Shown here: positions 420-12,101 of the stretch, one piece after another | Position numbering within the stretch: position 1 is the stretch's first letter | Layout: the number at the start of each line of letters is the position of its first letter | Origin: a virus | Length of the DNA: 36,561 nt | Virus record (IMG/VR): IMGVR_UViG_3300042356_001680 | Location: 1 to 36,561 of that record | Reading direction: 5' to 3' (one strand) | Made by a program: the position numbers and the translations under genes | The notes under the pieces: generated by a model | Told to the model about the DNA's origin: nothing | What the model saw: the letters and a program-made list of their open reading frames with translations, nothing else | Databases searched by the model: none

Positions 420-435
420 TGTTTCACGTGAAACA
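420..435. promoter_or_regulatory. parS: parS site 1 (canonical 16-bp ParB-binding palindrome)
   Basis: TGTTTCACGTGAAACA, an exact match to the consensus chromosomal parS bound by ParB/Spo0J-family proteins. Flanking bases extend the perfect palindrome to 20 bp (418-437). Its right edge touches the -35 of promoter 2 (437-442), so ParB loading or spreading from here would cover that promoter. Confidence 0.85.
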
Positions 436-436
436 T

Positions 437-466
437 TTGTTACTCGCCCGTAACGGCTAGTAAGGT
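437..466 (+). promoter_or_regulatory. Family promoter 2 (leaderless, abuts parS)
   Basis: TTGTTA at 437-442, spacer core CTCGCCCGTAACG, TAAGGT at 461-466. The ATG at 473 is 6 nt downstream. A TTG at 467 is in frame but would precede the predicted transcription start. Confidence 0.87.
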
Positions 467-472
467 TTGGGT

Positions 473-769
473 ATGACATCAACAGCAACATTCCCACACA
501 AATCACACAACCCACTCCCTTCGGGGATTGGAACATTCAGCGTTCTAGAAAACGGCTCAATGATTATCTACCCATCAAACTCGTCAGCCATTGAGAGCGT
601 TCACTGGATTTCCCAAACTGGTTCACTCGCTGTCAGGTACGCCAACAACAGCACCCACTACTACTACCAAGATGTCCCAGCCACCGTGGTGTTCCACCTA
701 CTGGTCGCTGACAGTTTCGGGAAGTTCATCAACACCCACATCAAGCCGAACTACAAGGTTCTCTCCTAA
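473..769 (+). CDS. KTSC-domain protein 1
   Basis: A 98-aa protein. About residues 33-95 match the KTSC domain pattern: SSAIESV, a short strand pair (LAVRYANN..HYYYQDVP), then VVFHLLVADSFGKFINTHIKPNY. The domain is small, is named after a C-terminal domain of some lysyl-tRNA synthetases, and occurs alone in many phage and bacterial proteins without a proven role. It is a paralogue of the gene at 1614, sharing the SFGKF.N.HIKPNY end. Start chosen from the leaderless promoter. It is preceded by parS site 1 and followed by two GC-rich hairpins. Confidence 0.8.
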   Translation: MTSTATFPHKSHNPLPSGIGTFSVLENGSMIIYPSNSSAIESVHWISQTGSLAVRYANNSTHYYYQDVPATVVFHLLVADSFGKFINTHIKPNYKVLS

Positions 770-784
770 GACCCCCCACAGAGA

Positions 785-819
785 CCCCACCAACCCTCGG
801 ACACGACAGGTTGGTGGGG
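785..819 (+). terminator. Hairpin with conserved 13-nt loop, copy 1
   Basis: CCCCACCAACC (785-795) pairs perfectly with GGTTGGTGGGG (809-819) around the loop CTCGGACACGACA. The stem after the other KTSC gene (1930-1964) has the same loop but a different, still perfectly paired, stem. It is followed by CTTTGG only, so termination may be weak. Confidence 0.6.
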
Positions 820-839
820 CTTTGGGCTGTCCAGCCCCA

Positions 840-869
840 CCCCTTCGGGAGCCCCGGCTCCCGAAGGGG
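840..869. terminator. Perfect 14-bp GC-rich hairpin
   Basis: The 14-base arm at 840-853 pairs with 856-869 around a 2-nt loop. The hairpin contains the recurring GAGCCCCG octamer (849-856). No T tract follows, so it may be an RNA-stabilising or rho-type barrier rather than an intrinsic terminator. Confidence 0.5.
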
Positions 870-884
870 TGTTGAGTTCGTAAC

Positions 885-914
885 TTGTTAGTCGGTCGTA
901 ACGCGTGATAAGTT
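885..914 (+). promoter_or_regulatory. Family promoter 3 (leaderless)
   Basis: TTGTTA 885-890, spacer core GTCGGTCGTAACG, TAAGTT 909-914; ATG at 921 after 6 nt. Confidence 0.87.
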
Positions 915-920
915 ATTTAT

Positions 921-1169
921 ATGAACAGCGAAACAAACACCGACCACCTCCCTCATTTCTGTGGAGATAACTGTATGTTGGAAGCCGAGTCTGTCGGTTT
1001 CTTTACTGGTGATGATTGGGTAAATACCGAGCAAGAGTTCACCCACGAAAACCCACATTGCGATTGGTGTGGCGAGTCAGATGATGACAATGAGCCATAC
1101 GAAGATGATGCGTGGGCAGACCACCAAACCCTTGTCGGTATCGGTCACGGTGATGATGAGGATTACTAA
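921..1169 (+). CDS. Acidic Cys-containing small protein
   Basis: An 82-aa, strongly acidic protein. It carries CGDNC at about residues 15-19 and HCDWC at about 48-52, then a run rich in Asp and Glu (ESDDDNEPYEDD). Two CxxC-like pairs could bind zinc, but spacing is not that of a family I know. It is a single-gene cassette bounded by promoter 3 and the terminator at 1182. The leaderless ATG has no Shine-Dalgarno sequence. Acidic small phage proteins are often DNA mimics or host-protein binders; nothing here decides between these. Confidence 0.7.
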   Translation: MNSETNTDHLPHFCGDNCMLEAESVGFFTGDDWVNTEQEFTHENPHCDWCGESDDDNEPYEDDAWADHQTLVGIGHGDDEDY

Positions 1170-1181
1170 CCTCTGATAGGG

Positions 1182-1207
1182 GAGGGGAAACCTTCCCCTC
1201 TTTCTTT
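1182..1207 (+). terminator. Intrinsic terminator
   Basis: GAGGGGAA (1182-1189), loop ACC, TTCCCCTC (1193-1200), then TTTCTTT. A perfect 8-bp stem. Confidence 0.8.
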
Positions 1208-1283
1208 GCCTGAGCCCCGTCTCCGGTATTAGCTAGTATCAATAAGCAACTGTACGAACGTACGTACGGGGCTACAAACCAAC

Positions 1284-1313
1284 TTGTTACTCGGCCGTAA
1301 CCCCAGGTAAGAT
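1284..1313 (+). promoter_or_regulatory. Family promoter 4 (leaderless)
   Basis: TTGTTA 1284-1289, spacer core CTCGGCCGTAACC, TAAGAT 1308-1313; ATG at 1320 after 6 nt. An in-frame GTG at 1314 would lie upstream of the predicted transcription start. Confidence 0.85.
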
Positions 1314-1319
1314 GTGGGT

Positions 1320-1496
1320 ATGGAAAAAACAGCGACCATCCCATACGCCCTTCTATTGGAGGCCTACCAGGCAGCCACATACAGGGCGTACGAAGACCCC
1401 CAGACTTTTTACACTGGGGAACGACCACACTCAGAGAAACTGGTTGCCCAGTTGGAAGAGTTCATTGACCAAGACGACAAGTACAACCAGGAGTAA
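1320..1496 (+). CDS. Small hypothetical protein
   Basis: A 58-aa hydrophilic protein (MEKTATIPYALLLEAYQAA...), mostly predicted helical with several Tyr and Glu residues. It has no signal, membrane segment or motif I recognise. It is a one-gene cassette between promoter 4 and the strong hairpin terminator at 1529. The start follows the leaderless rule. Confidence 0.65.
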   Translation: MEKTATIPYALLLEAYQAATYRAYEDPQTFYTGERPHSEKLVAQLEEFIDQDDKYNQE

Positions 1497-1528
1497 TTAC
1501 CGGGGTCACTGGCAGCAATGCTGGTGGC

Positions 1529-1570
1529 CCTACTTACTCGGGAGCCCCGACTCCCGAGTAAGTAGGTTTT
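1529..1570 (+). terminator. 16-bp stem terminator
   Basis: Arm 1529-1544 pairs perfectly with 1551-1566; the loop CCCCGA is part of a GAGCCCCG octamer. It is followed by TTTT, and promoter 5 begins only 8 nt later, so it insulates the two cassettes. Confidence 0.85.
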
Positions 1571-1577
1571 CCCCAAC

Positions 1578-1607
1578 TTGTTAGTCGTGCGTAACTGGTG
1601 ATAAGTT
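1578..1607 (+). promoter_or_regulatory. Family promoter 5 (leaderless)
   Basis: TTGTTA 1578-1583, spacer core GTCGTGCGTAACT, TAAGTT 1602-1607; ATG at 1614 after 6 nt. Confidence 0.87.
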
Positions 1608-1613
1608 GAATGT

Positions 1614-1913
1614 ATGAACACAGCGACATTTGAAACAACACTCAATAACCAACTTCCTTCGGGCAATGGGGTATTCCACATCACCAAGTATGCGATTACC
1701 TTCTTACCGAAAGAATCATCAGCCATCACCGAGGCTATGTACTTCCCCGAAGACAACACGCTCTCCATCACCTACAAGGGTGGGGCAAGTTACTTCTACA
1801 AAGAAGTTCCTGCCTTCGTGGTGTTCAACCTGATGGTTGCCGAAAGTTTCGGCAAGTTCGTGAATGAACACATCAAGCCAAATTACAGATTCCTCAAAAA
1901 CATCTACCTATAA
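1614..1913 (+). CDS. KTSC-domain protein 2
   Basis: A 99-aa protein with the KTSC pattern over about residues 35-95: SSAITEAMYFPEDNTLSITYKGG, YFYKEVPAFVVFNLMVAESFGKFVNEHIKPNY. It shares both the N-terminal LPSG.G.F segment and the C-terminal block with the gene at 473, so the two are duplicates that have diverged at many positions. The 3' hairpin was duplicated too, with the loop conserved. Function unknown; KTSC proteins are small and probably bind another protein or a nucleic acid. Leaderless start. Confidence 0.8.
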   Translation: MNTATFETTLNNQLPSGNGVFHITKYAITFLPKESSAITEAMYFPEDNTLSITYKGGASYFYKEVPAFVVFNLMVAESFGKFVNEHIKPNYRFLKNIYL

Positions 1914-1929
1914 GACCCCCAACGGATTA

Positions 1930-1969
1930 CCCCACTCGCCCTCGGACACGACAGGCGAGTGGGGTTTTT
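1930..1969 (+). terminator. Terminator with conserved 13-nt loop, copy 2
   Basis: CCCCACTCGCC (1930-1940), loop CTCGGACACGACA, GGCGAGTGGGG (1954-1964), TTTTT (1965-1969). Compared with copy 1 at 785, the inner stem differs on both sides yet stays fully paired. Confidence 0.85.
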
Positions 1970-2003
1970 CGTCCCTGAGCCCCGGGTCGTACTTGAGACA
2001 CAA

Positions 2004-2019
2004 TGTTTCACGTGAAACA
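2004..2019. promoter_or_regulatory. parS: parS site 2
   Basis: An exact TGTTTCACGTGAAACA; flanking bases make a 24-bp perfect palindrome (2000-2023), the longest of the three. It lies 13 nt upstream of the -35 of promoter 6. Confidence 0.87.
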
Positions 2020-2032
2020 TTGTTTGTGTAAG

Positions 2033-2062
2033 TTGTTACTCGCCCGTAACAGACGGTAGGGT
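2033..2062 (+). promoter_or_regulatory. Family promoter 6 (leaderless, between two parS sites)
   Basis: TTGTTA 2033-2038, spacer core CTCGCCCGTAACA, TAGGGT 2057-2062; ATG at 2069 after 6 nt. parS sites 2 and 3 flank it, 88 bp apart start to start. Confidence 0.85.
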
Positions 2063-2068
2063 GTGTGT

Positions 2069-2368
2069 ATGAAAACAAACAGCGAGCAGAATGTTTCACG
2101 TGAAACATTTGAGCGAATCAGTGAAGCGGCCGAAGAATTGCGTAACGCACTCAAAGCCTTGAACCCAGAGACAGGGCAACTACCCTCCTACTCAAACCCA
2201 TACCCACGAGGTTGGGAATCATCGTGGGACGTGGCTCGACCATGGGACGACACGACAATTAGCAATGCCATCCACTACGCATCTTCTCTCGTTCTCGACT
2301 ACGGATGGGAACAAGAGATAGAAGAAAAGCAAGCAAAACTTGACGAGTTCAACAAGGAAGAGGAGTGA
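2069..2368 (+). CDS. Hypothetical protein with parS inside its 5' end
   Basis: A 99-aa soluble protein. Its first 15 codons contain parS site 3, read as NVSRETF. A helical stretch follows (about residues 12-30, ISEAAEELRNALKAL), then a Pro/Trp-rich middle (YPRGWESSWDVARPWDD) and a charged C-terminal helix (EQEIEEKQAKLDEFNKEEE). I do not recognise the family. Because a ParB site lies on each side of its promoter, it is a good candidate for ParB-dependent control. It overlaps the next gene as TGATG. Confidence 0.75.
   Translation: MKTNSEQNVSRETFERISEAAEELRNALKALNPETGQLPSYSNPYPRGWESSWDVARPWDDTTISNAIHYASSLVLDYGWEQEIEEKQAKLDEFNKEEE
2092..2107. promoter_or_regulatory. parS: parS site 3 (inside a coding sequence)
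   Basis: A third exact TGTTTCACGTGAAACA, with a 20-bp perfect palindrome (2090-2109). It starts 23 nt after the start codon of the gene at 2069 and is in frame within it. Confidence 0.85.
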
Positions 2369-2652
2369 TGGAATACATCGACGAACCAAAAGTCATCAAG
2401 CGAGCCAAGACCGAGAAGCCAAAGCAGAAAACCAAGTACAAGGTCAGGGCGTGGGTCGAGGACTTGATGGAGACCCCAAACAAATGGGCCGTCTATGCCC
2501 ATCAGCCTCTCACCCGACAGGGCATGATGAACGCCTACAGTTACATGGACGGATACAAGAGACGCTACTCCCACATTGAGTGGGCAATCTCGAAAGAAGA
2601 GAACTCCTATGCAATCTGCGGCCGATACACACCGACCGAGGAATCACAATGA
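2368..2652 (+). CDS. Basic hypothetical protein
   Basis: A 94-aa protein that starts at the ATG overlapping the upstream stop (TGATG), with AGGAG just before it, so translation is probably coupled. The N-terminal third is Lys-rich (VIKRAKTEKPKQKTKYKVR); the rest is compact with Trp, Tyr and Met (NKWAVYAHQPL, MNAYSYMDGYKRRY, YAICGRYTP). It could bind nucleic acid, judging only by charge. No named domain recognised. Confidence 0.7.
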   Translation: MEYIDEPKVIKRAKTEKPKQKTKYKVRAWVEDLMETPNKWAVYAHQPLTRQGMMNAYSYMDGYKRRYSHIEWAISKEENSYAICGRYTPTEESQ

Positions 2653-2684
2653 AGAAGAGGAACGGGGCTTCCCCTTTTCGGAAA

Positions 2685-2714
2685 TTGTTAGTCATGCGTA
2701 AGAAGAAGTATTAT
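2685..2714 (+). promoter_or_regulatory. Family promoter 7 (leaderless, most diverged)
   Basis: TTGTTA 2685-2690, spacer GTCATGCGTAAG..., -10 TATTAT 2709-2714, ATG 2721 after 6 nt. The spacing is exact and CGTAA is kept although the -10 is unusual for the family. It helps decide the start of the gene at 2721. Confidence 0.75.
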
Positions 2715-2720
2715 GGGATT

Positions 2721-3146
2721 ATGAAATCAGCAGAACTCCTCGCCCATGACCAACTCCAATTCTCACTTGACAACGACCCAGACTGCTTTGACAAAGCAAA
2801 AGCAGAACTCTATGGGATTACAGAACAAGAGCAATTCGTAAGGCTCGCTTGGGCACTTGATGTGTACGACCTGCTTGAGTCCTCATACAACTTTGAGAAC
2901 TTTGTGGGCATCTCGGTTTACACGACAGGTTGGGCTTCTCCACTCAATGAAGACGGTGAGGTGGATTGCGCACCGTCTGAACACCCAGAGCGTAAGCGTG
3001 TCTCGGTCATCACGACCATTACTGCCGAGGGTCGTGGCTCTGCTCTCGCCTTCGCAGACGAGGAAGAAATCATGACCGACCCCGGCACTGCTTCTGGACA
3101 ACTCGCAGACGCTATCGCAGACTGCTGGATTAGGTCTAAGGCATGA
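2721..3146 (+). CDS. Paralogue of the 5535 protein, GWASPLNEDG family
   Basis: A 141-aa soluble protein. Its central block TGWASPLNEDGEVD.APSEHPERKRV corresponds to SGWAAPLNDDGSIDGAPSQHAQRRRV in the gene at 5535. Both also share an N-terminal E.L.HD helix and a C-terminal TASGQLADA / ATGSLAEA end. The biochemical role is unknown. The start is taken at 2721 because promoter 7 ends 6 nt before it. An in-frame ATG at 2649 overlaps the previous stop (ATGA) and could give a longer, translationally coupled form with a basic N-terminus (KKRN...RKKKYYG). Confidence 0.72.
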   Translation: MKSAELLAHDQLQFSLDNDPDCFDKAKAELYGITEQEQFVRLAWALDVYDLLESSYNFENFVGISVYTTGWASPLNEDGEVDCAPSEHPERKRVSVITTITAEGRGSALAFADEEEIMTDPGTASGQLADAIADCWIRSKA

Positions 3147-3244
3147 AACGCAACGCCTTGGAGCTTCTCATACTCTCCCTTATTACCATCAGCGCAGTCA
3201 CTGTCTTTTGGTATCTCCTAGACCTGCTGTTCAGAATTATCTGA
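3143..3244 (+). CDS. 33-aa single-TM peptide
   Basis: ATG overlaps the previous stop (ATGA), then MKRNALELLILS... and a continuous hydrophobic stretch to the stop at 3242. One membrane helix is expected, with positive charges only at the N-terminus. Its size and coupling suggest a genuine small membrane peptide made with the upstream protein. The role is unknown. Confidence 0.55.
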   Translation: MKRNALELLILSLITISAVTVFWYLLDLLFRII

Positions 3245-3262
3245 CCTGAGCCCCGATGGGGT

Positions 3263-3345
3263 GACAGGGGACGGGGCTACCCCTGTCCACTTGGTTGCGC
3301 TCGCAACTACTTCCCTCGCAATAGTTGCGCGCTCAACTACTTATC
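3263..3345. repeat. Intergenic hairpins and TTGCG/CAACTACTT repeats
   Basis: GACAGGGG (3263-3270) pairs with CCCCTGTC (3280-3287), enclosing CGGGGCT. Next come two related stretches, CGCAACTACTTCCC and GCTCAACTACTTATC, each near a TTGCG inverted repeat. They separate the 2069-3244 cassette from repeat copy 1 and promoter 8. Termination is likely but there is no clean T tract. Confidence 0.4.
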
Positions 3346-3390
3346 TAATGGTGGGGGGCAGAGGGCTATTGAGGGGGTTGCTTTTTATTT

Positions 3391-3405
3391 GACGGTGGTG
3401 GATGA
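3391..3405 (+). repeat. GACGGTGGTGGAWGA repeat, copy 1
   Basis: Nine copies of this 15-bp sequence lie between 3391 and 18794, all in the + orientation. This copy (W = T) sits in an intergenic space 8 bp upstream of the -35 of promoter 8. Confidence 0.85.
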
Positions 3406-3412
3406 GTTGAAC

Positions 3413-3442
3413 TTGTTACCAGCCCGTAACGGTGGCTAAGTT
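3413..3442 (+). promoter_or_regulatory. Family promoter 8 (leaderless)
   Basis: TTGTTA 3413-3418, spacer core CCAGCCCGTAACG, TAAGTT 3437-3442; ATG at 3449 after 6 nt. Confidence 0.86.
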
Positions 3443-3448
3443 GGTGGC

Positions 3449-3898
3449 ATGACGAAAGCACTTTTCATTCCAGCGACAGGCGAACCACGCACCATTACTC
3501 TCCCAAAGGAGAACGCTCACACGGTCATTCATGACCTAATCGGTGGGTGGTTTGATTGTGTCTCATTGGCACAGGGAGCAGTCGCCATGTATGTCCATGA
3601 CGAAGGCTTGCTTATTGGGCTTGAACCCAATGTCACGGCTACCGTTCTCTACGGCAACCCCATCGCAGGAGATGTGTTGCTTGTCGGCACACTCAACGAC
3701 AAGGGCGAGCGTGACGGATACGACTACGACCTACCTGACTTGTTCTTCTCTGCCGACTTATTCGCACGAGTAATGATTGTGAATAACGAAGAAGCGAACC
3801 GAGAAATGCTTGCCGAGGAGATTAGCAAAATGGACTTCACTCCAAAGGTCATGTCATTGACTGACGATGAGTTCAACGCATGGATTGGGAGCAAATAA
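3449..3898 (+). CDS. DUF3846-like protein
   Basis: A 149-aa protein. The first about 100 residues follow the DUF3846 pattern seen in many phages: an N-terminal strand with a PATGEPRTITLP loop, HDLIGGWFDCVSL, then AVAMYVHDEGLLIGLEPNVTAT and a DVLLVGTLND strand. The remaining 45 residues are helical and acidic. DUF3846 has no established function. It is first in a three-gene cassette (3449-4442) held together by TAATG overlaps and read from promoter 8. Confidence 0.68.
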   Translation: MTKALFIPATGEPRTITLPKENAHTVIHDLIGGWFDCVSLAQGAVAMYVHDEGLLIGLEPNVTATVLYGNPIAGDVLLVGTLNDKGERDGYDYDLPDLFFSADLFARVMIVNNEEANREMLAEEISKMDFTPKVMSLTDDEFNAWIGSK

Positions 3899-4242
3899 TG
3901 TTTGAGGACATTCAGCCCCTTGCCCAACTTGAACGAGACTTCACCAAGTTAGAACTGTCCGTAATCATTGAAGCGTTGATACTGTTCCGTAGCAGTGGAG
4001 TACGACCCGACTTTGATTCCATTGACCCTGACACGGTGACTCTTGAAACGCTTGACGAAATTGACATTCCAGTCAAGACAATGACCGAGGAAGATGAAGA
4101 AGCAATAAACGAAATGACAATGCTGTTCATGGCAGGGTTTGCTCAGATTATTAGCATTGAACACGAACTTCTTGAAGAAGCGTACGACAAAGGAGCGAAC
4201 GCTCTTGTGTCGGAAATCTCAGACTTCTTGAAGGAGCAGTAA
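3898..4242 (+). CDS. Acidic helical hypothetical protein
   Basis: A 114-aa protein whose ATG overlaps the upstream TAA (TAATG), so translation is probably coupled. It is rich in Glu, Asp and Ile and looks mainly alpha-helical (LERDFTKLELSVIIEALILF; EDEEAINEMTMLFMAGFAQII). The hydrophobic patches are short and amphipathic, so I expect a soluble protein rather than a membrane one. No family recognised. Confidence 0.7.
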   Translation: MFEDIQPLAQLERDFTKLELSVIIEALILFRSSGVRPDFDSIDPDTVTLETLDEIDIPVKTMTEEDEEAINEMTMLFMAGFAQIISIEHELLEEAYDKGANALVSEISDFLKEQ

Positions 4243-4442
4243 TGAAACACTATGTAGATGACATTGTCGGAAAGACCATCGCAAAGGTCACGAGCCTCAC
4301 TGCCGATGAAATCAAAGAGTTCATGTGGTATTGCGACCCAGTAGAAACGACAGTGATTGAGTTCACCGATGGTTCTACTATTGTTGTAATGGCAGGCCCC
4401 GAAGGCAATGGCCCGGGTTTTCTCGACTATGTATGTATGTAG
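4242..4442 (+). CDS. Small conserved-type phage protein
   Basis: A 66-aa protein coupled to the upstream gene by TAATG. The pattern GKTIAKVTSLTADEIKEFMW...TTVIEFTDGSTIVVMAGPEGNGPGFL resembles a family of short phage and bacterial proteins of unknown role that have GK.I..V..LT.EE and FTDG....EGN.PG motifs. It would form a small beta-rich fold. The cassette ends after it, with an inverted repeat TCGGG..CCCGA near 4453-4469. Confidence 0.68.
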   Translation: MKHYVDDIVGKTIAKVTSLTADEIKEFMWYCDPVETTVIEFTDGSTIVVMAGPEGNGPGFLDYVCM

Positions 4443-4471
4443 AAAAAGAGAGTCGGGGCTCAGCTCCCGAT

Positions 4472-4501
4472 TTGTTAGTCGTGCGTAACGCACAGTAAGG
4501 T
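4472..4501 (+). promoter_or_regulatory. Family promoter 9 (leaderless)
   Basis: TTGTTA 4472-4477, spacer core GTCGTGCGTAACG, TAAGGT 4496-4501; ATG at 4508 after 6 nt. Confidence 0.88.
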
Positions 4502-4507
4502 GGAGAC

Positions 4508-5080
4508 ATGAACAAGATACAAGTATCAGCACGCAAGGGTGGACTAGGAACAACTACGGTTGCCTGCTCTATCGCACTTACCTATTCACGCCTTCACCCA
4601 ACACTCAAAATTGGGTTAGTCGATAAGTCACGATTCAACGACTGCCTATCGGTCATGGGGCTCAACCCTCAATCACCGAGCCTTCATGGCGTTACCATTA
4701 TCAACAAAGAGACAGACGGCTACGATGTTCTCATCGTAGATGCTGGAGTTACTGACGAACTAGACCCTGACGCAATCATTGTCAATGTCGTTCGCAACGA
4801 ATACCTGTCAATGAGAGCAGAGACGCTGGTGAACCTCAGCAATGATTACACGGTGGCCCTAATCAACACAGAGAACGCTCTCAATGCGAAAGATGTTTCC
4901 CATGTTGTGAGGTCAGAGGTTTCAGTATTCCCACTCACGGCACAGATGAGCAGAGCCATTGACGCTGGAATGTTCACTTCACGATTTGAGCAACTAGGTA
5001 ACGAATGGGCAGACAAATTGGTCGAGAGCCTTGCGTTCAGGAATGGTCACAACTTGTCAGTCGTGCGTAACGGAAACTAA
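4508..5080 (+). CDS. ParA/MinD-superfamily-like protein with altered P-loop
   Basis: A 190-aa protein. Residues 10-17 are KGGLGTTT, the deviant Walker A of the ParA/MinD/TadZ group. The signature Lys10 is present, but the usual second lysine (GKTT) is Thr15. Residues 34-39 give KIGLVD and 72-80 YDVLIVDAG, the Walker B strand with Asp78. A missing P-loop lysine is known in TadZ/CpaE-type proteins, so ATP turnover may be weak while nucleotide or DNA binding remains possible. At 190 aa it is shorter than a typical ParA. It lies 2.4 kb from the nearest parS site; no ParB gene is visible. The last codons and stop lie inside promoter 10. Confidence 0.75.
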   Translation: MNKIQVSARKGGLGTTTVACSIALTYSRLHPTLKIGLVDKSRFNDCLSVMGLNPQSPSLHGVTIINKETDGYDVLIVDAGVTDELDPDAIIVNVVRNEYLSMRAETLVNLSNDYTVALINTENALNAKDVSHVVRSEVSVFPLTAQMSRAIDAGMFTSRFEQLGNEWADKLVESLAFRNGHNLSVVRNGN

Positions 5081-5083
5081 GGT
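5054..5083 (+). promoter_or_regulatory. Family promoter 10 (leaderless, overlaps upstream gene)
   Basis: TTGTCA 5054-5059, spacer core GTCGTGCGTAACG, TAAGGT 5078-5083; ATG at 5090 after 6 nt. The whole element up to the TAA lies in the ParA-like reading frame. Confidence 0.86.
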
Positions 5084-5089
5084 AGAGAC

Positions 5090-5374
5090 ATGGAAACAGA
5101 CACAAACACACTCAACGAATACAACGAACTCCGTATTGGCGACATAGTTGGCGATACAGGGCGAATGGTAATCGCCTACACAAAGCGTCATGACCGTGTT
5201 GTCGGTGACTGCTACGCCACTTGGGTAGCGATTTGCGTAGACGAAACAGCGTTCCACCCTTACGCTGTTTGGACTGTCGTGGCTCGCCCTAATGGGTGGC
5301 TCGCCGAGTCGGGCGATTACTGCTCAACACTTGAGAAAGCATTAGTCGCCTACAAAGAACGTGGGGGCGAGTAG
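5090..5374 (+). CDS. Hypothetical protein
   Basis: A 94-aa protein with alternating strands: LRIGDIVGDTGRMVIAYTKR, YATWVAICVDETAF, YAVWTVVARPNGWLAESGDY. It is rich in aromatic residues and probably a small beta fold, ending in a short helix (LEKALVAYKERGG). No membrane segment or known catalytic motif. The start is set by the leaderless promoter 10. It is a single-gene cassette followed by a terminator-like hairpin at 5375. Confidence 0.68.
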   Translation: METDTNTLNEYNELRIGDIVGDTGRMVIAYTKRHDRVVGDCYATWVAICVDETAFHPYAVWTVVARPNGWLAESGDYCSTLEKALVAYKERGGE

Positions 5375-5400
5375 AGAGAAAGGGCTCTAGCTCTTTTTCT
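5375..5400 (+). terminator. Probable intrinsic terminator
   Basis: GAGAAAGGGCT...AGCTCTTTTTCTC with a CTAG-containing loop and a T-rich 3' arm; the pairing is imperfect in the middle. Confidence 0.5.
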
Positions 5401-5444
5401 CCCACTGAGCCCCGGCACTCTTCCTGCCTGCACCGGATAGCGGG

Positions 5445-5464
5445 GCCCCACACGACAATGGGGC
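5445..5464. terminator. Short hairpin with ACACGACA loop
   Basis: GCCCC (5445-5449) pairs with GGGGC (5460-5464); the loop is ACACGACAAT. The ACACGACA loop is shared with the two KTSC-gene hairpins. It lies 5 nt upstream of promoter 11. Confidence 0.4.
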
Positions 5465-5468
5465 AGAC

Positions 5469-5498
5469 TTGTTAGTCGTGCGTAACGCAAACTAAGTT
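5469..5498 (+). promoter_or_regulatory. Family promoter 11 (leadered)
   Basis: TTGTTA 5469-5474, spacer core GTCGTGCGTAACG, TAAGTT 5493-5498. No start codon lies 6-7 nt downstream; the ATG is at 5535, behind GAAAGGGAAA, so a leader of about 30 nt with a Shine-Dalgarno sequence is predicted. Confidence 0.85.
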
Positions 5499-5534
5499 GG
5501 TTCTTGTAACAACGACCCCACGAAAGGGAAACCA

Positions 5535-6005
5535 ATGACAACACTCACCGAAATAGCAACCGAGGCTGAACTCTTTGTTCACGACTTCTTGGGTGCGTTC
5601 ACCAATGAACAAGACAGCCTGTGGATGAGCGAGGCTCACCTGCTTGTTGTTCGTACCGAGAATGACGGAGTGACAGTTGAGCCTGTATCCTCTCACCCTG
5701 ATGTTTACGAACTGATTGACGAAACGATTGCCGAGACACCGTTCTCTGTTCGTTCCTCTGACATTCTTGCCGTAGTCACTTCGGGTTGGGCTGCGCCCCT
5801 CAATGATGACGGTTCTATTGACGGTGCGCCTTCACAACACGCCCAGCGTCGCCGTGTGCGCCTCTGTGCCTTCGTTCGCCGTAGTGACCTTACTATGGCA
5901 AGCATTATCCGTTTCGGTGATACTGACGAAGTGAACATTGACGCAGGTAGCGCAACTGGCTCACTTGCCGAGGCAATGCTCTCGCTTGGTGACGCAGGAA
6001 AGTGA
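5535..6005 (+). CDS. Paralogue of the 2721 protein, GWAAPLNDDG family
   Basis: A 156-aa soluble protein. Residues of about 75-115 carry VTSGWAAPLNDDGSIDGAPSQ and QRRRVRLCAFVRR, matching the gene at 2721. The N-terminal half is helical (ATEAELFVHDFLGAF) and the C-terminus ends ATGSLAEAMLSL. The role is unknown. The duplicate differs in expression design: this copy has a leader and a Shine-Dalgarno sequence (GAAAGGG), the 2721 copy is leaderless. Coupled to the next gene by GTGA. Confidence 0.72.
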   Translation: MTTLTEIATEAELFVHDFLGAFTNEQDSLWMSEAHLLVVRTENDGVTVEPVSSHPDVYELIDETIAETPFSVRSSDILAVVTSGWAAPLNDDGSIDGAPSQHAQRRRVRLCAFVRRSDLTMASIIRFGDTDEVNIDAGSATGSLAEAMLSLGDAGK

Positions 6006-6226
6006 TAAATAATCACTACCGTTTCTACAAGTCGGTATGGTTGGGGAGGGTTGTCGCCCTCCCCACTACCGACCTGTACAAGGCAGTCACCGGAATGTTC
6101 TACGAGACTGATGACCTTGACCTATCCAATGCCATTACCGACCTTGCTTATGCTGAACTAACCAAGCGTGGCGAAATGAGACCTCGGGGCTCAGCCACGC
6201 TTGCGAGACTTGTTAGTCGTCCGTAA
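6002..6226 (+). CDS. Hypothetical protein, GTG start
   Basis: A 74-aa protein. It starts at GTG overlapping the upstream TGA (GTGA). The sequence is basic at the N-terminus (INNHYRFYKSVWLGRVV), then LPTTDLYKAVTGMFYETDDLDLSNAITDLAYAEL, probably helical. The last 17 bases, including the stop, run into promoter 12, and the stop TAA is the one inside the promoter's CGTAA. Not recognised; a moderately secure call resting on the overlap and codon pattern. Confidence 0.58.
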   Translation: MINNHYRFYKSVWLGRVVALPTTDLYKAVTGMFYETDDLDLSNAITDLAYAELTKRGEMRPRGSATLARLVSRP

Positions 6227-6239
6227 TAGAAACTAAGGT
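6210..6239 (+). promoter_or_regulatory. Family promoter 12 (leaderless, overlaps upstream gene)
   Basis: TTGTTA 6210-6215, spacer GTCGTCCGTAAT..., TAAGGT 6234-6239; ATG at 6246 after 6 nt. Confidence 0.85.
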
Positions 6240-6245
6240 AATCCC

Positions 6246-6671
6246 ATGGAAACAAACACACCTATCGCCACTGGCGAACTTACCAATTCATGCACCTGCC
6301 TCACCTATGAGGAAGACGGCGAAACAATGTCAATTGACACCGAGTACGGTTCTACCTGCTACGGAGACTGTTGGGACTTCGCTGTTGAAGACTTTGCAAT
6401 GATTACCGAGGAACTTCGTAACTCTAACGAAACTGACTGGTGGAAGGTTGAAGACTTACGCCTATGGAGTGACAATGTCTCAGGGTACTTCCACGCCAAT
6501 ACAGTCGCTGACCTGATTGAAGGCATGACAGTCCGTAGCGACTGGCGTATGACTTACAAGGTATTTGGTGACCGTATTGAGTATTCTCTCAGTCACCACG
6601 ATGCGATGGGTAGCGCAAGCACCCTGCGCACCGTCTCAGACGATGAGCGTGAAGACTTGGGGCTCTACTAA
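6246..6671 (+). CDS. Acidic hypothetical protein upstream of WhiB
   Basis: A 141-aa acidic protein. It has a Cys cluster near the N-terminus (NSCTCLTY at about residues 15-22, then STCYGDCWDF at about 36-45) followed by a Trp-rich helical part (ETDWWKVEDLRLW) and a C-terminal strand region (MTYKVFGDRIEYSLSHHD). The four or five cysteines could bind metal. It is coupled to the WhiB gene by TAATG, so the two are made together and may act together. Family not recognised. Confidence 0.7.
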   Translation: METNTPIATGELTNSCTCLTYEEDGETMSIDTEYGSTCYGDCWDFAVEDFAMITEELRNSNETDWWKVEDLRLWSDNVSGYFHANTVADLIEGMTVRSDWRMTYKVFGDRIEYSLSHHDAMGSASTLRTVSDDEREDLGLY

Positions 6672-6919
6672 TGAGCATGGCACTGTACGAACGGAATTGG
6701 GCTGAGCAAGCAAACTGTAAAGACATGGATAAGGCTCTCTTCTTTCCTGCCTCAGTAAGGGAACTGAAACAAGCCAAGCAAGTTTGCTCAACCTGCCCTG
6801 TCTCTGCCGACTGCCTGCAGTATGCAACCGACAACACACTTGAGTACGGAGTGTGGGGAGGACTAGGGGAGAGTGACCGTCTCAGGTTGGCGAGAGACGC
6901 CAGGCGTGCAGGGCTCTAA
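6671..6919 (+). CDS. WhiB-family Fe-S transcription factor 1
   Basis: An 82-aa protein, normal for phage WhiB-like proteins. The four cluster ligands are C16, C39, C42 and C48 (NCKDMD...VCSTCPVSADC), followed by GVWGG at 60-64 and a basic C-terminal tail (RLRLARDARRAG). WhiB proteins carry a [4Fe-4S] cluster, bind region 4 of the primary sigma factor and change promoter choice. Known mycobacteriophage members (for example WhiBTM4) alter host division or superinfection. The family is essentially confined to actinobacteria and their phages. It overlaps the upstream gene (TAATG). Confidence 0.93.
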   Translation: MSMALYERNWAEQANCKDMDKALFFPASVRELKQAKQVCSTCPVSADCLQYATDNTLEYGVWGGLGESDRLRLARDARRAGL

Positions 6920-7027
6920 CTACCCCCTGGAGCCCCGGCCCGACTCTGAGCCGGGAAAGTGGCGAGACGAAACGGATAAATCTATCCACGTGCGCGTGAC
7001 AGCCGGCCACGGAGCTTCCCTTTATAT

Positions 7028-7042
7028 GACGGTGGTGGATGA
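7028..7042 (+). repeat. GACGGTGGTGGAWGA repeat, copy 2
   Basis: W = T, intergenic, 4 bp upstream of the -35 of promoter 13. With the next bases the core reads GGTGGATGACAAC. Confidence 0.85.
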
Positions 7043-7046
7043 CAAC

Positions 7047-7076
7047 TTGTTAGCCGTCCGTAACGACTAGTAAGGT
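7047..7076 (+). promoter_or_regulatory. Family promoter 13 (leaderless)
   Basis: TTGTTA 7047-7052, spacer core GCCGTCCGTAACG, TAAGGT 7071-7076; ATG at 7084 after 7 nt. An in-frame GTG at 7075 overlaps the -10 and is excluded. Confidence 0.85.
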
Positions 7077-7083
7077 GGCAGAC

Positions 7084-7551
7084 ATGGGATTAGACCAATA
7101 CTTATACGCAAAAAACTACCTTTCTCCTATGGAATGGAGAGGGCAGGAAATGACCGACACTTTCAACGCTGTTGCTGACGCAATTGGCGTGAGGGACTTC
7201 ATGGACAAGGACTTACCTTCCATCCAATGCCAAGTCAAAATTGGCTACTGGCGAAAGGCGAACGCCATTCATGACTGGTTCGTACAGAACTGTCAAGACG
7301 GTAACGACGACTGCCGTGAGGCTTATGTACCTATCGAGAAACTGGAAGAACTTCGCACAGTTTGTAAAATGGTTCTAGGTAACCACGCCCTCGCTAGCGA
7401 ACACCTTCCAACTACATCGGGCTTCTTCTTTGGTAGCACCGACTATGACGAGTGGTATTACAAAGACCTTGAATTGACCGTGGACATTATTGACAATGCT
7501 CTCTCTAAGGTCTCTGACGCTTGGACTTTCGCCTATCAGAGTTCGTGGTAA
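7084..7551 (+). CDS. Conserved phage protein (GLDQYLYAK family)
   Basis: A 155-aa protein. It has the layout of a phage family of unknown function that starts MGLD.YLYAK and contains IGYWRKANAIHDWFVQN, DCREAYVPIEKLEEL, LPTTSGFFFGSTDYDEWYYKDLELT. The strongly conserved YWRKAN.IH.WF and FFFGS..YDEWY blocks suggest an enzyme or binding pocket, but no role is established. Start from the leaderless promoter. A 2-nt gap separates it from the next gene, so they share a transcript. Confidence 0.78.
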   Translation: MGLDQYLYAKNYLSPMEWRGQEMTDTFNAVADAIGVRDFMDKDLPSIQCQVKIGYWRKANAIHDWFVQNCQDGNDDCREAYVPIEKLEELRTVCKMVLGNHALASEHLPTTSGFFFGSTDYDEWYYKDLELTVDIIDNALSKVSDAWTFAYQSSW

Positions 7552-7553
7552 TC

Positions 7554-7757
7554 ATGGCTCTGAACTTGAAAGAAAGTACCTTTGACTGGTTCGTCTGTGA
7601 TTGTGGAAATAATCCACACCTGGACGGTTTCGAGACGTGCTTGAAAGACGGAACAATTGTCTATCCGACGCCCGACGAATGGGATGGAATTCACTACATC
7701 TGTGAACGCTGTAATTCTGTTTACAACTCCGACACGATGGAAGAGGTGGCCGGGTAG
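7554..7757 (+). CDS. Putative zinc-ribbon small protein
   Basis: A 67-aa protein. FVCDCGNNPHLDGF in the first third and YICERCNSVYN in the last third give a CxC plus CxxC arrangement with one more Cys (ETC) between them, as in treble-clef or zinc-ribbon proteins. It starts 2 nt after the previous stop and has no strong Shine-Dalgarno sequence, so coupling is likely. Function unknown; probably protein or nucleic-acid binding. Confidence 0.65.
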   Translation: MALNLKESTFDWFVCDCGNNPHLDGFETCLKDGTIVYPTPDEWDGIHYICERCNSVYNSDTMEEVAG

Positions 7758-7794
7758 CTCCCGGTGCGGGGCTCGCCCAAGCCCCTACGCAAAC

Positions 7795-7824
7795 TTGTTA
7801 CTCGTCCGTAACGCAAACTAAGGT
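7795..7824 (+). promoter_or_regulatory. Family promoter 14 (leadered)
   Basis: TTGTTA 7795-7800, spacer core CTCGTCCGTAACG, TAAGGT 7819-7824. The ATG is at 7863, so a leader of about 32 nt is predicted; it contains CTACTAGAAAGAAATAGGG just before the start. Confidence 0.86.
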
Positions 7825-7862
7825 GTTCTTATCCACCCCAACTACTAGAAAGAAATAGGGAA

Positions 7863-8285
7863 ATGGCACAAAAACCAATCAGCGTAAAGGTCAGCACTAA
7901 GAAAGTGATTGACGCATTAGAAAAGGCTCTCGCAGAGCGTAAGAAAGAAGTTGCCGAAAACGAAAAGGCTCGGAAAGACCACGAAAAGGCTGTCAAGGAC
8001 TTCCAAGACACTCTTGCCGAGATGTTTCGTTCAGGGAAAGGCAAAGTAACTAGCGTCAGCAAGTCTCACGCCTATCGCTACAACGAGGAAAACAACAAGT
8101 ACGAAATCACCGTTGAGTTCCCTGCTTCTGTAAAAGCACCGAAAGAGCCTGAAATCAACTCTGCCGACTGGTCACTCAAATCAGACATTGAGGAACTGGA
8201 AAACGCTGTCGCAGTCCTGAAAATGACTGACGAGGAAACCATCAACACCAGCACCTACAAGGGTGTGGCTCGCTTCATCAAATAA
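7863..8285 (+). CDS. Coiled-coil hypothetical protein
   Basis: A 140-aa soluble protein. Residues of about 10-60 are a charged helix with heptad character (IDALEKALAERKKEVAENEKARKDHEKAVKDF), expected to form a coiled coil. A beta-rich middle (YRYNEENNKYEITVEFPASV) and another helix (DIEELENAVAVLKM) follow. Its leader carries the CTACTAGAAA box and AGGG, so it belongs to the leadered class and may be strongly expressed. No family recognised. A GNRA-loop hairpin follows at 8292. Confidence 0.75.
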   Translation: MAQKPISVKVSTKKVIDALEKALAERKKEVAENEKARKDHEKAVKDFQDTLAEMFRSGKGKVTSVSKSHAYRYNEENNKYEITVEFPASVKAPKEPEINSADWSLKSDIEELENAVAVLKMTDEETINTSTYKGVARFIK

Positions 8286-8291
8286 GGTTGA

Positions 8292-8307
8292 GGGGGCGCA
8301 AGCCCCC
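8292..8307 (+). terminator. GGGGGC-GCAA-GCCCCC hairpin
   Basis: Six G-C pairs with a GCAA (GNRA) tetraloop directly between two genes of one transcript. No T tract; more likely an mRNA stability element or attenuator than a full terminator. Confidence 0.45.
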
Positions 8308-8337
8308 AATACCCCCACCCCACCGAGGAGGTGAATA

Positions 8338-8508
8338 ATGGGACAGTATGAAATGGCAAATGCCATAATCAAAGAACTTCTGTCGGGAGACATAGAAGAA
8401 CTTGAGGAACTTACTGCAGACTTTCTTCTAGACATGATGGGAGTTTGTGGAGTTGAGTTAGCAGTTGGAGACAAAGCCTCTCACGCATTTATCAACCAAA
8501 AGGGTTAG
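8338..8508 (+). CDS. Small acidic helical protein
   Basis: A 56-aa protein preceded by a strong Shine-Dalgarno sequence (GAGGAGGTG, 7 nt before the ATG), one of the best in this arm. The sequence is acidic and helical (MANAIIKELLSGDIEELEELTADFLLDMMG), ending VGDKASHAFINQKG. It probably shares the transcript of promoter 14. Not recognised. Confidence 0.66.
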   Translation: MGQYEMANAIIKELLSGDIEELEELTADFLLDMMGVCGVELAVGDKASHAFINQKG

Positions 8509-8528
8509 TTCGTTTCCATCAACGAAAG

Positions 8529-8554
8529 AAAGGGTAGGAGAAATCCTGCCCTTT
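8529..8554 (+). terminator. 11-bp stem with GAAA tetraloop
   Basis: Arm 8529-8539 (AAAGGGTAGGA) pairs with 8544-8554 (TCCTGCCCTTT), one T-G wobble, GAAA loop. Only a short T/C run is in the 3' arm. It probably ends the 7863-8508 transcript. Confidence 0.55.
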
Positions 8555-8595
8555 CCCTATGCCGAGCCCCGGTCCGGAGGCTGCATATTTCGAAC

Positions 8596-8625
8596 TTGTT
8601 ACCCGCCCGTAACGCAGAATAAGAT
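8596..8625 (+). promoter_or_regulatory. Family promoter 15 (leaderless)
   Basis: TTGTTA 8596-8601, spacer core CCCGCCCGTAACG, TAAGAT 8620-8625; ATG at 8633 after 7 nt. Confidence 0.86.
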
Positions 8626-8632
8626 TGTCCAC

Positions 8633-8944
8633 ATGAGCACAGATTATCAACTCCACTGGGACGCCTTAGCAAACTTTGGCGAATCCACACCAATAGAAAT
8701 TCGCTTTCATGCGAATACCACCCAAAAACATTTCCAACTGCTAGCAACTGCTGGGACCAATGGTCAAATTTACTACACACTCCACTACAACCCTCGTAGC
8801 AACTACTCAATGGCACTTTCGTACATTGTTGGTCACGATAAAAGTGACGTTACATTGCCCATGAAGAACTACTCAGGATGGCAAAATGACGTGCTTTCTT
8901 GGGTTATCAGTATGAAGCATTACACAGTGGACCAAGTCTTCTAA
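8633..8944 (+). CDS. Hypothetical protein
   Basis: A 103-aa protein (MSTDYQLHWDALANF...). It is beta-rich with many Tyr, His and Asn (IEIRFHANTTQKHF, GQIYYTLHYNPRSNYSMALSYIVGHDKSD) and ends with a Trp-containing helix. No motif recognised. The start is set by the leaderless promoter; longer upstream in-frame starts would precede transcription. Coupled to the next gene by TAATG. Confidence 0.68.
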   Translation: MSTDYQLHWDALANFGESTPIEIRFHANTTQKHFQLLATAGTNGQIYYTLHYNPRSNYSMALSYIVGHDKSDVTLPMKNYSGWQNDVLSWVISMKHYTVDQVF

Positions 8945-9204
8945 TGAAGGCAAAAGACATTGCCAGACACATGTCTGCCTTGGACCCCGACGAAGAGCTC
9001 GTCTGTGTGTGGTTCACAAAAGACGACTTTCCCCTAGGTATAAAGGACGATGGTGACTACGAGACACTTGCTCCGATGGAGTGGGATGATGTAGTCTCTA
9101 CATTTGAGAACGAAAAGTGGGCCAACCCTCTCAATAGTTCGTGGGCAGATGTCCATCAAGACATTTATAAACTAGTAGGAGAAAAACTCGGTGCCTTGGT
9201 CTGA
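8944..9204 (+). CDS. PDEEL-type small protein 1
   Basis: An 86-aa acidic protein. It begins MKAKDIARHMSALDPDEELVCVWFTKDDFPL, which matches the start of the gene at 10762 (IIKQIIEMLSRYSPDEELCILWWDKPQF). This helix, PDEEL turn and W-containing strand recur in small phage proteins of unknown function. It is followed in both places by another small gene in overlapping frame, so the two-gene unit may have been duplicated. Coupled through TAATG. Confidence 0.7.
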   Translation: MKAKDIARHMSALDPDEELVCVWFTKDDFPLGIKDDGDYETLAPMEWDDVVSTFENEKWANPLNSSWADVHQDIYKLVGEKLGALV

Positions 9205-9463
9205 AGAGGAAACAAAGAAAGCGTTCATGAAAAACGCGGTCTCGTTCGTACTGTCTGAATATCCCCGGGATGTTGACATCATGGATATCCCAACACTGGT
9301 TGAGTATGTAGACAAACGCATCCTGGTATGGGAACCATTCGTCCGGCGTTCCGGGATTGAACTGGCCGACATAATTGACCAGTTATTTGAAATGAACTAC
9401 TCGACTTACCTGCAGTCAACCGGGGGCGGGGCTCCCGAGTCCTCTGACCACACCGAGTGGTGA
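9191..9463 (+). CDS. Hypothetical protein, GTG start
   Basis: A 90-aa protein. GTG at 9191 has AGGAG about 9 nt upstream and overlaps the previous gene by 14 bp. It is helical (EEETKKAFMKNAVSFVLSEYP; MDIPTLVEYVDKRILVW; GIELADIIDQLFEMNYSTYL) and ends in a Gly-rich tail. It contains a CGGGGCTC octamer near its 3' end. A weak resemblance to the gene at 10997 (both have a helix ending in a hydrophobic DIIDQLF / KIINEMF block) fits duplication of the unit. Confidence 0.6.
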   Translation: MPWSEEETKKAFMKNAVSFVLSEYPRDVDIMDIPTLVEYVDKRILVWEPFVRRSGIELADIIDQLFEMNYSTYLQSTGGGAPESSDHTEW

Positions 9464-9530
9464 CGACCACGCTGCGCGTTTATTCAGAAATCTAAGATTT
9501 CAAGAGACTCACCCCAGACAATTATTACCT

Positions 9531-9545
9531 GACGGTGGTGGATGA
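9531..9545 (+). repeat. GACGGTGGTGGAWGA repeat, copy 3
   Basis: W = T, intergenic; its end is 4 bp from the -35 of promoter 16, the same geometry as copy 2 with promoter 13. Confidence 0.85.
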
Positions 9546-9549
9546 GAAC

Positions 9550-9579
9550 TTGTTAGTCGTCCGTAACGAGAAGTAAGTT
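9550..9579 (+). promoter_or_regulatory. Family promoter 16 (leaderless)
   Basis: TTGTTA 9550-9555, spacer core GTCGTCCGTAACG, TAAGTT 9574-9579; ATG at 9586 after 6 nt. All 30 bases are identical to promoter 17, 220 bp away. Confidence 0.88.
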
Positions 9580-9585
9580 GGAGAC

Positions 9586-9768
9586 ATGAAGAAATTTACA
9601 CTCCGAGTAACAGAATCCATCAACCACGACTACGAAATTGAAGCAGAGACCGAAGAAGAGGCTCTCTCTATCTACTACTCGTACGACAATGACCAACTCA
9701 AGTCACTTGACCTTGACGGTCAATCAGAATGGGACACGCACCCATGGGAAATCACGGAATCGGACTGA
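9586..9768 (+). CDS. Small acidic protein
   Basis: A 60-aa protein: MKKFTLRVTES, then DYEIEAETEEEALSIYYSYD, a beta strand followed by a helix with EAETEEEAL, ending DTHPWEITESD. This strand-helix layout with an E.E.EEEAL motif recurs in tiny phage proteins of unknown role. Single-gene cassette; the next promoter's -35 begins 2 nt after the stop codon. Confidence 0.7.
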   Translation: MKKFTLRVTESINHDYEIEAETEEEALSIYYSYDNDQLKSLDLDGQSEWDTHPWEITESD

Positions 9769-9769
9769 C

Positions 9770-9799
9770 TTGTTAGTCGTCCGTAACGAGAAGTAAGTT
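9770..9799 (+). promoter_or_regulatory. Family promoter 17 (leaderless)
   Basis: TTGTTA 9770-9775, spacer core GTCGTCCGTAACG, TAAGTT 9794-9799; ATG at 9806 after 6 nt. An exact 30-bp duplicate of promoter 16. Confidence 0.88.
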
Positions 9800-9805
9800 G
9801 TTCTT

Positions 9806-10081
9806 ATGACACAGCACTACATCCGAATCCTTACCGAAGTCTCCTACCCCGAAGGTCCGACCTACGCCAAGTGGGATTACTTCTCTATCTCTGATGAGAA
9901 GTTGCCTGTGGAGTTCCGAGAGTTGCCCGACCCCGAGAAGTTCTACGACTTCCTGAATAACAACGGTTTCTGGGATAAGGGCTGGCAGGAAATCACCCCA
10001 GAGATTGACGCTTGGATTGACTTCCACCCCGACCAATGTGGGTTGCAAGACGAAATCGCCATAGAAGTCACTTATGTCTGA
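9806..10081 (+). CDS. Hypothetical protein
   Basis: A 91-aa acidic protein. The N-terminal half is a strand with aromatic residues (HYIRILTEVSYPEGPTYAKWDYFSI), followed by FYDFLNNNGFWDKGWQEITPEIDAWIDFHPDQCG and a final strand (EIAIEVTYV). A compact alpha/beta fold seems likely. Not recognised. Single-gene cassette between promoters 17 and 18, with no visible terminator. Confidence 0.68.
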   Translation: MTQHYIRILTEVSYPEGPTYAKWDYFSISDEKLPVEFRELPDPEKFYDFLNNNGFWDKGWQEITPEIDAWIDFHPDQCGLQDEIAIEVTYV

Positions 10082-10083
10082 AC

Positions 10084-10113
10084 TTGTTAGTCGTCCGTAA
10101 CGCCGACTAATCT
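10084..10113 (+). promoter_or_regulatory. Family promoter 18 (leadered)
   Basis: TTGTTA 10084-10089, spacer core GTCGTCCGTAACG, TAATCT 10108-10113. The ATG is at 10148 behind CTACTAAAAAGGAAC, giving a leader of about 28 nt. Confidence 0.84.
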
Positions 10114-10147
10114 AAACATTGTCCCCCCTACTAAAAAGGAACAAAAA

Positions 10148-10765
10148 ATGCCAAATTGGGTATCAACAACACTGAGCGTAAAAGGCTCGCCAACAGAAGT
10201 ACAGCGATTCATTGACGGAATCAAGGATTCCAAGATTCTTGAGTCGTATGTCCCTTGCCCTACGGAACTGCACGAGACAGTCGCTGGCTCTGTCGGCACC
10301 GATAAAGCAGAAGAGCATCGCAAACAACAAGAGTCCAACATTGCCAAGTACGGTCACAAGGACTGGTACGACTGGGCATACGACACTTGGGGTACCAAGT
10401 GGGGCGATTGTGATACCAGCATCGGACACCCGATGCAACTCGCTAACGGCTCATGGGAAGTCGTTGTGCATTACCAAACTGCATGGGGTCCAGCCGATGC
10501 AGGCTTCCTAAAGGTCTCTACGCTCTTCCCTGAACTGCTCTTCACCTTTGACTATGACGAAGAGGCTGGCTTCTTTGCAGGCACCGAGGCGTACCTCAAT
10601 GGCGACACAGTCTTTCAGTCCATGTATGAGCCATGCGCATACGAGGGCGAAGTAGATTACGACGACTACGAGTCCATTGACAAGTACGAAGCATGGAAAG
10701 AAGCGCAAGGCGATGCAATTTTTACCCAATACTGTGAATTCCTGAAAGAAGCGTCGTTGTTGTGA
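10148..10765 (+). CDS. Api92-like ferredoxin-fold domain protein
   Basis: A 205-aa protein. It opens with MPNWVSTTLSVKGSPTEVQRFIDGI, the hallmark of Api92/YubB-type phage and plasmid proteins (a MPNW...L.V.G....V..F start). Later blocks fit as well: WYDWAYDTWGTKWGDCD, SWEVVVHYQTAWGPADAGFLKVSTLFPELLFTFDYDEEAGFFAGTEAY. The family has a ferredoxin-like domain and no established function. The leader contains the CTACTAAAAAGGAA box, so start and Shine-Dalgarno agree. Coupled to the next gene through GTGA. Confidence 0.82.
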   Translation: MPNWVSTTLSVKGSPTEVQRFIDGIKDSKILESYVPCPTELHETVAGSVGTDKAEEHRKQQESNIAKYGHKDWYDWAYDTWGTKWGDCDTSIGHPMQLANGSWEVVVHYQTAWGPADAGFLKVSTLFPELLFTFDYDEEAGFFAGTEAYLNGDTVFQSMYEPCAYEGEVDYDDYESIDKYEAWKEAQGDAIFTQYCEFLKEASLL

Positions 10766-11464: not shown

Positions 11465-11479
11465 GACGGTGGTGGATGA
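11465..11479 (+). repeat. GACGGTGGTGGAWGA repeat, copy 4
   Basis: W = T, intergenic, 54 bp upstream of the -35 of promoter 19, so farther from its promoter than copies 1-3. Confidence 0.84.
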
Positions 11480-12098: not shown

Positions 12099-12101
12099 AA
12101 C

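Follow-up and report, generated by a model that had tools for sequence, protein, structure and literature searches.

ParB/parS is usually regarded as a system for the segregation of chromosomes and plasmids, and the extrachromosomal prophages of mycobacteriophages encode their own ParA and ParB. The parS of M. tuberculosis and of B. subtilis is one and the same 16-mer, TGTTTCACGTGAAACA, of which one mycobacterial copy overlaps a promoter (PMC2346475); work cited in that paper describes the stabilisation of an unstable B. subtilis plasmid by one chromosomal parS. In P. aeruginosa, host ParB represses the promoters adjoining parS3 and parS4 (PMC5521831). The parS mimics of SGI1 bind the ParB of IncC plasmids, stabilising SGI1 and destabilising the IncC helper plasmid (PMC10954446). 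Here we describe three exact copies of the chromosomal 16-mer in IMG/VR virus record IMGVR_UViG_3300042356_001680, a genome fragment of 36,561 bp, which was analysed over its full length and is referred to below as the window.

Three chromosomal-type parS palindromes and their conservation

A scan of the whole window located three exact copies of the 16-mer, designated A, B and C (Table 1), at the positions and with the extended palindromes that an earlier note on this DNA had claimed; no further match was present within three mismatches. Chromosomal-type parS is the 16-bp palindrome or a form one or two bases off, and all three copies are exact, which bears out the assignment to the chromosomal type made in that note. 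Its judgement that the number lies far beyond chance also stands, since the shuffled window gives 0.32 matches at up to three mismatches against the three observed with none. The sites are more numerous than chance, also when set against control palindromes, and they are conserved between lineages.

The window is a 36.6-kb part of a myovirus of approximately 148 kb. Three contigs are syntenic with it, namely G001 (27.7 kb, more than 99.9% identical across most of the sequence that the two have in common), G002 (118 kb) and the homologue G003 (148,355 bp), whose 127-bp end repeat implies that its map closes at about 148.2 kb. The gene products of G003 include a tail sheath, terminase, major head protein, RNR, the thymidylate synthase ThyX, SSB and helicases; its terminase is approximately 42% identical to those of Gordonia phages. 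Megablast of the window against isolate phages gave no match. The window carries two WhiB genes (6671-6919 and 19807-20220), from which the host, and with it the virus, is probably actinobacterial; an Actinomycetota metagenome-assembled genome with a 73% capsid homologue contains no parS. Among the scanned proteins of G003 (roughly half of its 216 predicted open reading frames, mostly the larger ones, the two largest, giant proteins lying outside the scan), no integrase, repressor, full ParB or convincing replication protein was found, and matches to replication-initiation proteins were weak only. The lack of the first three suggests that the lifestyle is probably lytic.

Five IMG/VR contigs were retrieved by means of an arm gene without using parS (G001, G002, G003, L032 and L059), and all five carry parS in the homologous arm, so that the conservation in related phages on which the earlier note had made its reading depend was indeed observed. 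Every site of the window is retained at the homologous position in some diverged lineage. Site A matches its G003 counterpart in 16 of 16 bases, the 40 bases to the left being 25% and the 20 bases to the right 20% identical; both copies lie upstream of a KTSC-domain gene. Site B is retained in the L032/L059 lineage despite a different promoter motif and a different downstream gene. The identity of site C to its G003 counterpart falls within a longer identical coding block and is hence weaker evidence. Beyond this close group, 50 wider relatives that have the capsid gene in common (4.35 Mb) were found to hold no exact parS, and only two sites with one mismatch, 101 bp apart in one genome; this absence is firm only for near-complete records (at least about 145 kb), because some of the shorter ones do not extend into the arm. 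We think it quite probable that the sites, in one role or another, serve host ParB and have been kept by selection.

Table 1. Coordinates of the parS sites, predicted promoters and associated genes in the window
Feature	Position	Strand	Remarks
parS site A, 20-bp palindrome	420..435		ends 1 bp ahead of the -35 of the promoter that follows; homologous to G003 127910
Predicted leaderless-type promoter, TTGTTACTCGCCCGTAAC element	437..466	+	-35 TTGTTA, -10 TAAGGT; the ATG at 473 follows after 6 bp
Gene for a small KTSC-domain protein, downstream of site A	473..769	+	Pfam PF13619, E 1.1e-13
parS site B, 24-bp palindrome	2004..2019		ends 13 bp upstream of -35; homologous to L032 7759
Predicted leaderless-type promoter, TTGTTACTCGCCCGTAAC, -10 TAGGGT	2033..2062	+	flanked by parS sites B and C
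Small gene, no family match, site C in its 5' coding region	2069..2368	+	84% identical to G003 130430-130738
parS site C, 20-bp palindrome, inside coding region	2092..2107		encodes part of NVSRETF; identical at G003 130456
ParA/MinD-superfamily-like gene	4508..5080	+	weak Pfam matches; Walker A motif KGGLGTTT, without the lysine of GKT

Adjoining promoters and candidate partition proteins

The arm genes share a predicted promoter layout of leaderless type, which comprises a -35-like TTG, a lineage-specific spacer, a TAAGGT-type -10 and an ATG 6 bp further on; promoter activity is inferred from these elements. The motif reads TTGTTASTCGNNCGTAAC in the window, TTGTCGGYYAGGGGTGGG in G003 and TTGTAAGYCNTYCGTAGG in L032. 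The three lineages together have six intergenic parS sites: A and B of the window, B of L032, and in G003 site A, the duplicate of A, and a minus-strand site D at 114843. All of them end 0-13 bp upstream of the -35 TTG, in upstream gaps of 83-713 bp; the gap before site B, which follows the gene at 1614-1913, is approximately 120 bp. Were the sites placed uniformly, the probability that the five of the window and G003 would all lie this close is about 1e-6 by a hand estimate that ignores terminators, a value that is optimistic because window A and G003 A are homologues, the latter with a paralogous duplicate besides, which leaves a smaller effective number of sites.

Under a loose pattern, 19 promoter copies were counted in the window (437-12193); G003 has 28, mostly at 112-141 kb, and those of L032 occupy 6590-8160. 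Homologous genes in the three related lineages sit behind three wholly different spacer motifs, as if the specificity of a regulator had been swapped across the whole arm in a manner resembling heteroimmunity.

No phage-encoded ParB was found. Six-frame ParB-family searches spanned whole records, and when applied to the named control genomes the models detect ParB in the majority. Neither the search for ParB_N (PF02195) in the window, G001, G002 and G003 nor that for TIGR00180 in 32 records, including other parS-bearing ones, returned a ParB above the full-family cut-off. The statement of the earlier note that the window holds no ParB gene is correct; it said little until relatives had been searched, because the window is a fragment, and the search for parB or integrase genes that the note had proposed likewise found none in the records and proteins of related phages that were scanned, and no cognate ParB. 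The sole ParB_N protein of G002 and G003 (268 aa) was considered and rejected as a phage ParB, since it lacks a helix-turn-helix (HTH) and the motifs of the cytidine triphosphate (CTP)-binding ParBs, having AGNHQLEAA in place of GERR and no GERR/ENLQR-type motifs. In G003 the gene for this HTH-less protein lies at 46486-47292, near terminase and tail genes. As no full phage ParB was found, the sites would be read either by host ParB or by an unrecognised protein.

The ParA-like gene, which begins 2.4 kb from the last parS site as had been stated, does not make the region a partition locus. Its similarity to ParA families is weak, the Walker-A lysine is absent from every member of the family read in the alignment, and four relatives that yielded no parS have the gene as well; on these grounds it is probably unrelated to the sites, its product is probably no partner of theirs, and it was rejected in that role. 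An AlphaFold model of the protein reached a pLDDT (predicted local distance difference test) of 36, too low to be of use, and a profile search of the PDB yielded nothing significant. The phage family to which it belongs (homologues L369-L372) has the Walker A motif KGGxG[TV][TS]T, without the canonical lysine, and is presumably TadZ/CpaE-like. A ParABS locus would combine a parB bearing ParB_N/CTPase and HTH domains with a parA having the deviant Walker A KGGxGKT[ST] in the same element, and neither gene was found here.

Further features of the window include nine copies of GACGGTGGTGGAWGA, all on the plus strand and mostly intergenic (3391, 7028, 9531, 11465, 15157, 16150, 16913, 18040 and 18780), with 0 expected from shuffles. 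At 12241-14470 a gene for an AAA (MoxR-like) ATPase precedes that for a 498-aa protein, which looks like a VWA-type partner and has no Pfam match; this region is 90% identical in G003. A proteasome/HslV-like peptidase gene is located at 20555-21196, and a long collagen-like Gly-X-Y repeat at 33480-35340 in the tail-fibre region.

parS in unrelated phages

The extended parS was found in 212 of 50,697 isolate phage records, whereas in the same records one matched palindrome gave 0 and 25 shuffled palindromes gave 0, the mixed query sitting at the E-value limit, where parS placed in it as a positive control returns 49 records. Some of the 212, the Listeria "LM" contigs, are possibly host DNA, and no conclusion was based on them. 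Counts of single sites in IMG/VR were rejected as a measure of enrichment, as parS and a control palindrome of the same composition each gave at least 120 matches. A second site nearby discriminates between them, being present in 25 of 120 parS contigs versus 0 of 120 control contigs among the matches listed.

The same 16-mer occurs in phages of Bacillus, Lactobacillus, Butyrivibrio, Ruegeria and actinobacteria, and in inoviruses. Allowing up to one mismatch, multiple sites are carried by Bacillus phage vB_BcoS-136 (4), Butyrivibrio phage Arian (3), Roseobacter phage DSS3P8 (3) and Arthrobacter phages Emotion (6) and JasmineDragon (5), and by two bajarodino inoviruses with 6 and 5 in 5.9 kb. 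The filamentous phages (inoviruses) L260 (PQ006135.1) and L264 (PQ006098.1) have 5-6 parS in less than 6 kb. In a clade related to pelagiphages HTVC027P and HTVC023P (54-62% TerL identity), 53 of 76 contigs (L379-L458) possess an exact parS in the stretch before terL, at a distance of 77-152 bp. These contigs had been selected through TerL; the conservation was first seen in a biased sample, selected by parS. Clustering of genes, carried out in search of a general parS-linked gene, returned this terminase clade and no common partner.

A further arrangement is found in G004 (IMGVR_UViG_3300037518_000322, 116 kb), which may be a plasmid or phage-plasmid. It holds 24 TGTTTCACGTGRAACA sites, which are parS variants, at 90681-112396, mostly between genes; the 23 asymmetric ones share one orientation. 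Beside them lies a true chromosomal-type ParA (270 aa), and no ParB was found. The pairing of ParA with TGTTTCACGTGRAACA sites was noted together with L279.

The occurrence of similar tags in many unrelated phages suggests that phages often borrow the segregation machinery of the host. A broader proposition, to which we would assign about equal chances of being right or wrong, is that the loading of host ParB through exact chromosomal parS is a widespread and repeatedly evolved strategy of ParB-less phages (myoviruses, pelagiphage relatives, other tailed phages and inoviruses), in which the CTP-dependent clamp would be used for promoters, for DNA of the packaging region or for the position of the genome during infection.

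Possible roles of the sites and comparison with known systems

The explanation that we favour is that the three 16-mers are genuine chromosomal-type parS kept by selection, upon which host ParB would load as CTP-dependent sliding clamps on the early arm of the phage during lytic infection, and that this complex would set the activity or timing of a few adjoining promoters; ParA or SMC may be recruited secondarily to the phage DNA. Given that every intergenic site abuts a -35 and that sites B and C bracket one of the promoters, an effect on promoters would be the likeliest direct one. The earlier note had suggested that ParB spreading controls adjacent promoters, and the placement of the sites directly against promoters fits that suggestion; we infer the spreading effect, as we do ParB binding, the early timing of the arm genes and the regulatory consequence. 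The composite claim, loading of host ParB on the arm together with an action at the promoters next to the sites, seems to us about as likely as not, and of promoter control specifically we are less sure than of selected host-ParB sites as such.

Several observations weigh against this explanation. A parS accompanies only a minority of arm promoters, two out of 19 for the window and three out of 28 for G003; site C is within a coding region, and the six intergenic sites are partly dependent, G003 A corresponding to window A and having a paralogous duplicate, and L032 B corresponding to window B. Scarce free intergenic space could partly explain the adjacency of sites and promoters. Single sites are gained, lost or degraded between lineages: site A has one mismatch in both G001 and G002, and the third lineage (L032/L059) retains only site B. 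Other phages have their sites in the gaps between cistrons or ahead of terL, so that the function common to all may be something other than promoter control.

Sites that lie away from promoters also occur in other phages, and these would suit a sink for ParB, in which hundreds of replicating genomes with 3-4 parS each deprive the host origin of ParB and upset host segregation, the loading of SMC or the control of the cell cycle, the promoter adjacency being incidental. Strong sites on a replicating genome would be expected to compete with the chromosome, and extra parS copies destabilise the helper plasmid in the SGI1/IncC case (PMC10954446). However, a sink predicts neither sites that abut the -35 nor the retention of particular homologous positions, and we regard this option, which the earlier note had also raised, as possible and rather unlikely. 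Alternatively, host ParB, ParA or SMC might position, condense or segregate the phage genome (localisation, a replication focus or a carrier state), much as a plasmid may borrow a chromosomal system; the B. subtilis plasmid cited in PMC2346475, the stabilisation of SGI1 by its stolen parS (PMC10954446) and the true ParA of G004 with its 24 parS variants and no ParB found all point in this direction. Against it, the scanned proteins of the relative of approximately 148 kb include no integrase, full ParB or repressor, and the ParA-like gene is without the Walker-A lysine and unlinked to parS; this makes such a role unlikely. The particular form proposed in the earlier note, a plasmid-like prophage, finds no support in the same proteins, among which are the sheath, terminase, RNR, thymidylate synthase and helicase.

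The promoter-proximal placement would equally be expected if the palindrome were the operator of another regulator, phage- or host-encoded, that happens to recognise the parS sequence, and a phage binding protein outside the ParB family is compatible with the sequence data. A private operator would not, however, be expected to converge upon an exact and widely conserved host parS that recurs in diverse phages, and we consider this very unlikely. Most improbable is that functionless sites were acquired by chance or hitchhiking when the phage recombined with DNA of the host or of a plasmid. A duplicated KTSC gene cassette does take site A and its duplicate along, and sites do turn over between lineages, but 16 identical bases amid unalignable flanks, retention in three lineages and zero counts for matched control palindromes are hard to reconcile with it.

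If lytic phages of many bacterial phyla do bear exact chromosomal parS and use host ParB, then ParB would be a host factor exploited by viruses, and phage infection would constitute a new setting for ParB loading, SMC recruitment and ParB-dependent transcription. For metagenomics, parS matches on contigs are not proof of chromosome origins.

Among the mainly open-access literature surveyed, mostly titles and abstracts, no report surfaced of chromosomal parS in phages being read by host ParB. The chromosomal ParB/Spo0J systems of B. subtilis, Mycobacterium and Streptomyces resemble the phage in having the same 16-bp palindrome in several copies within a few kb; they differ in that here the sites are phage-borne, no parB was found and there is no canonical parA. 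With the extrachromosomal mycobacteriophage prophages the virus shares a probable actinophage genome with partition-related DNA sites, although neither ParB nor lysogeny genes were found in this case. P. aeruginosa parS3 and parS4 likewise stand beside promoters, with ParB-dependent transcription of host genes there and predicted phage promoters here. The nearest parallel is SGI1, a mobile element which, like the phage, carries the parS of another replicon without the matching ParB (PMC10954446). SGI1 takes its sites from a plasmid, and experiments have demonstrated their binding as well as effects on stability and incompatibility, whereas the phage sites are chromosomal-type and lie in a probably lytic virus. 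The phage, with the parS of a foreign replicon present and the matching parB absent, would be a variant of partition hijacking by stolen parS.

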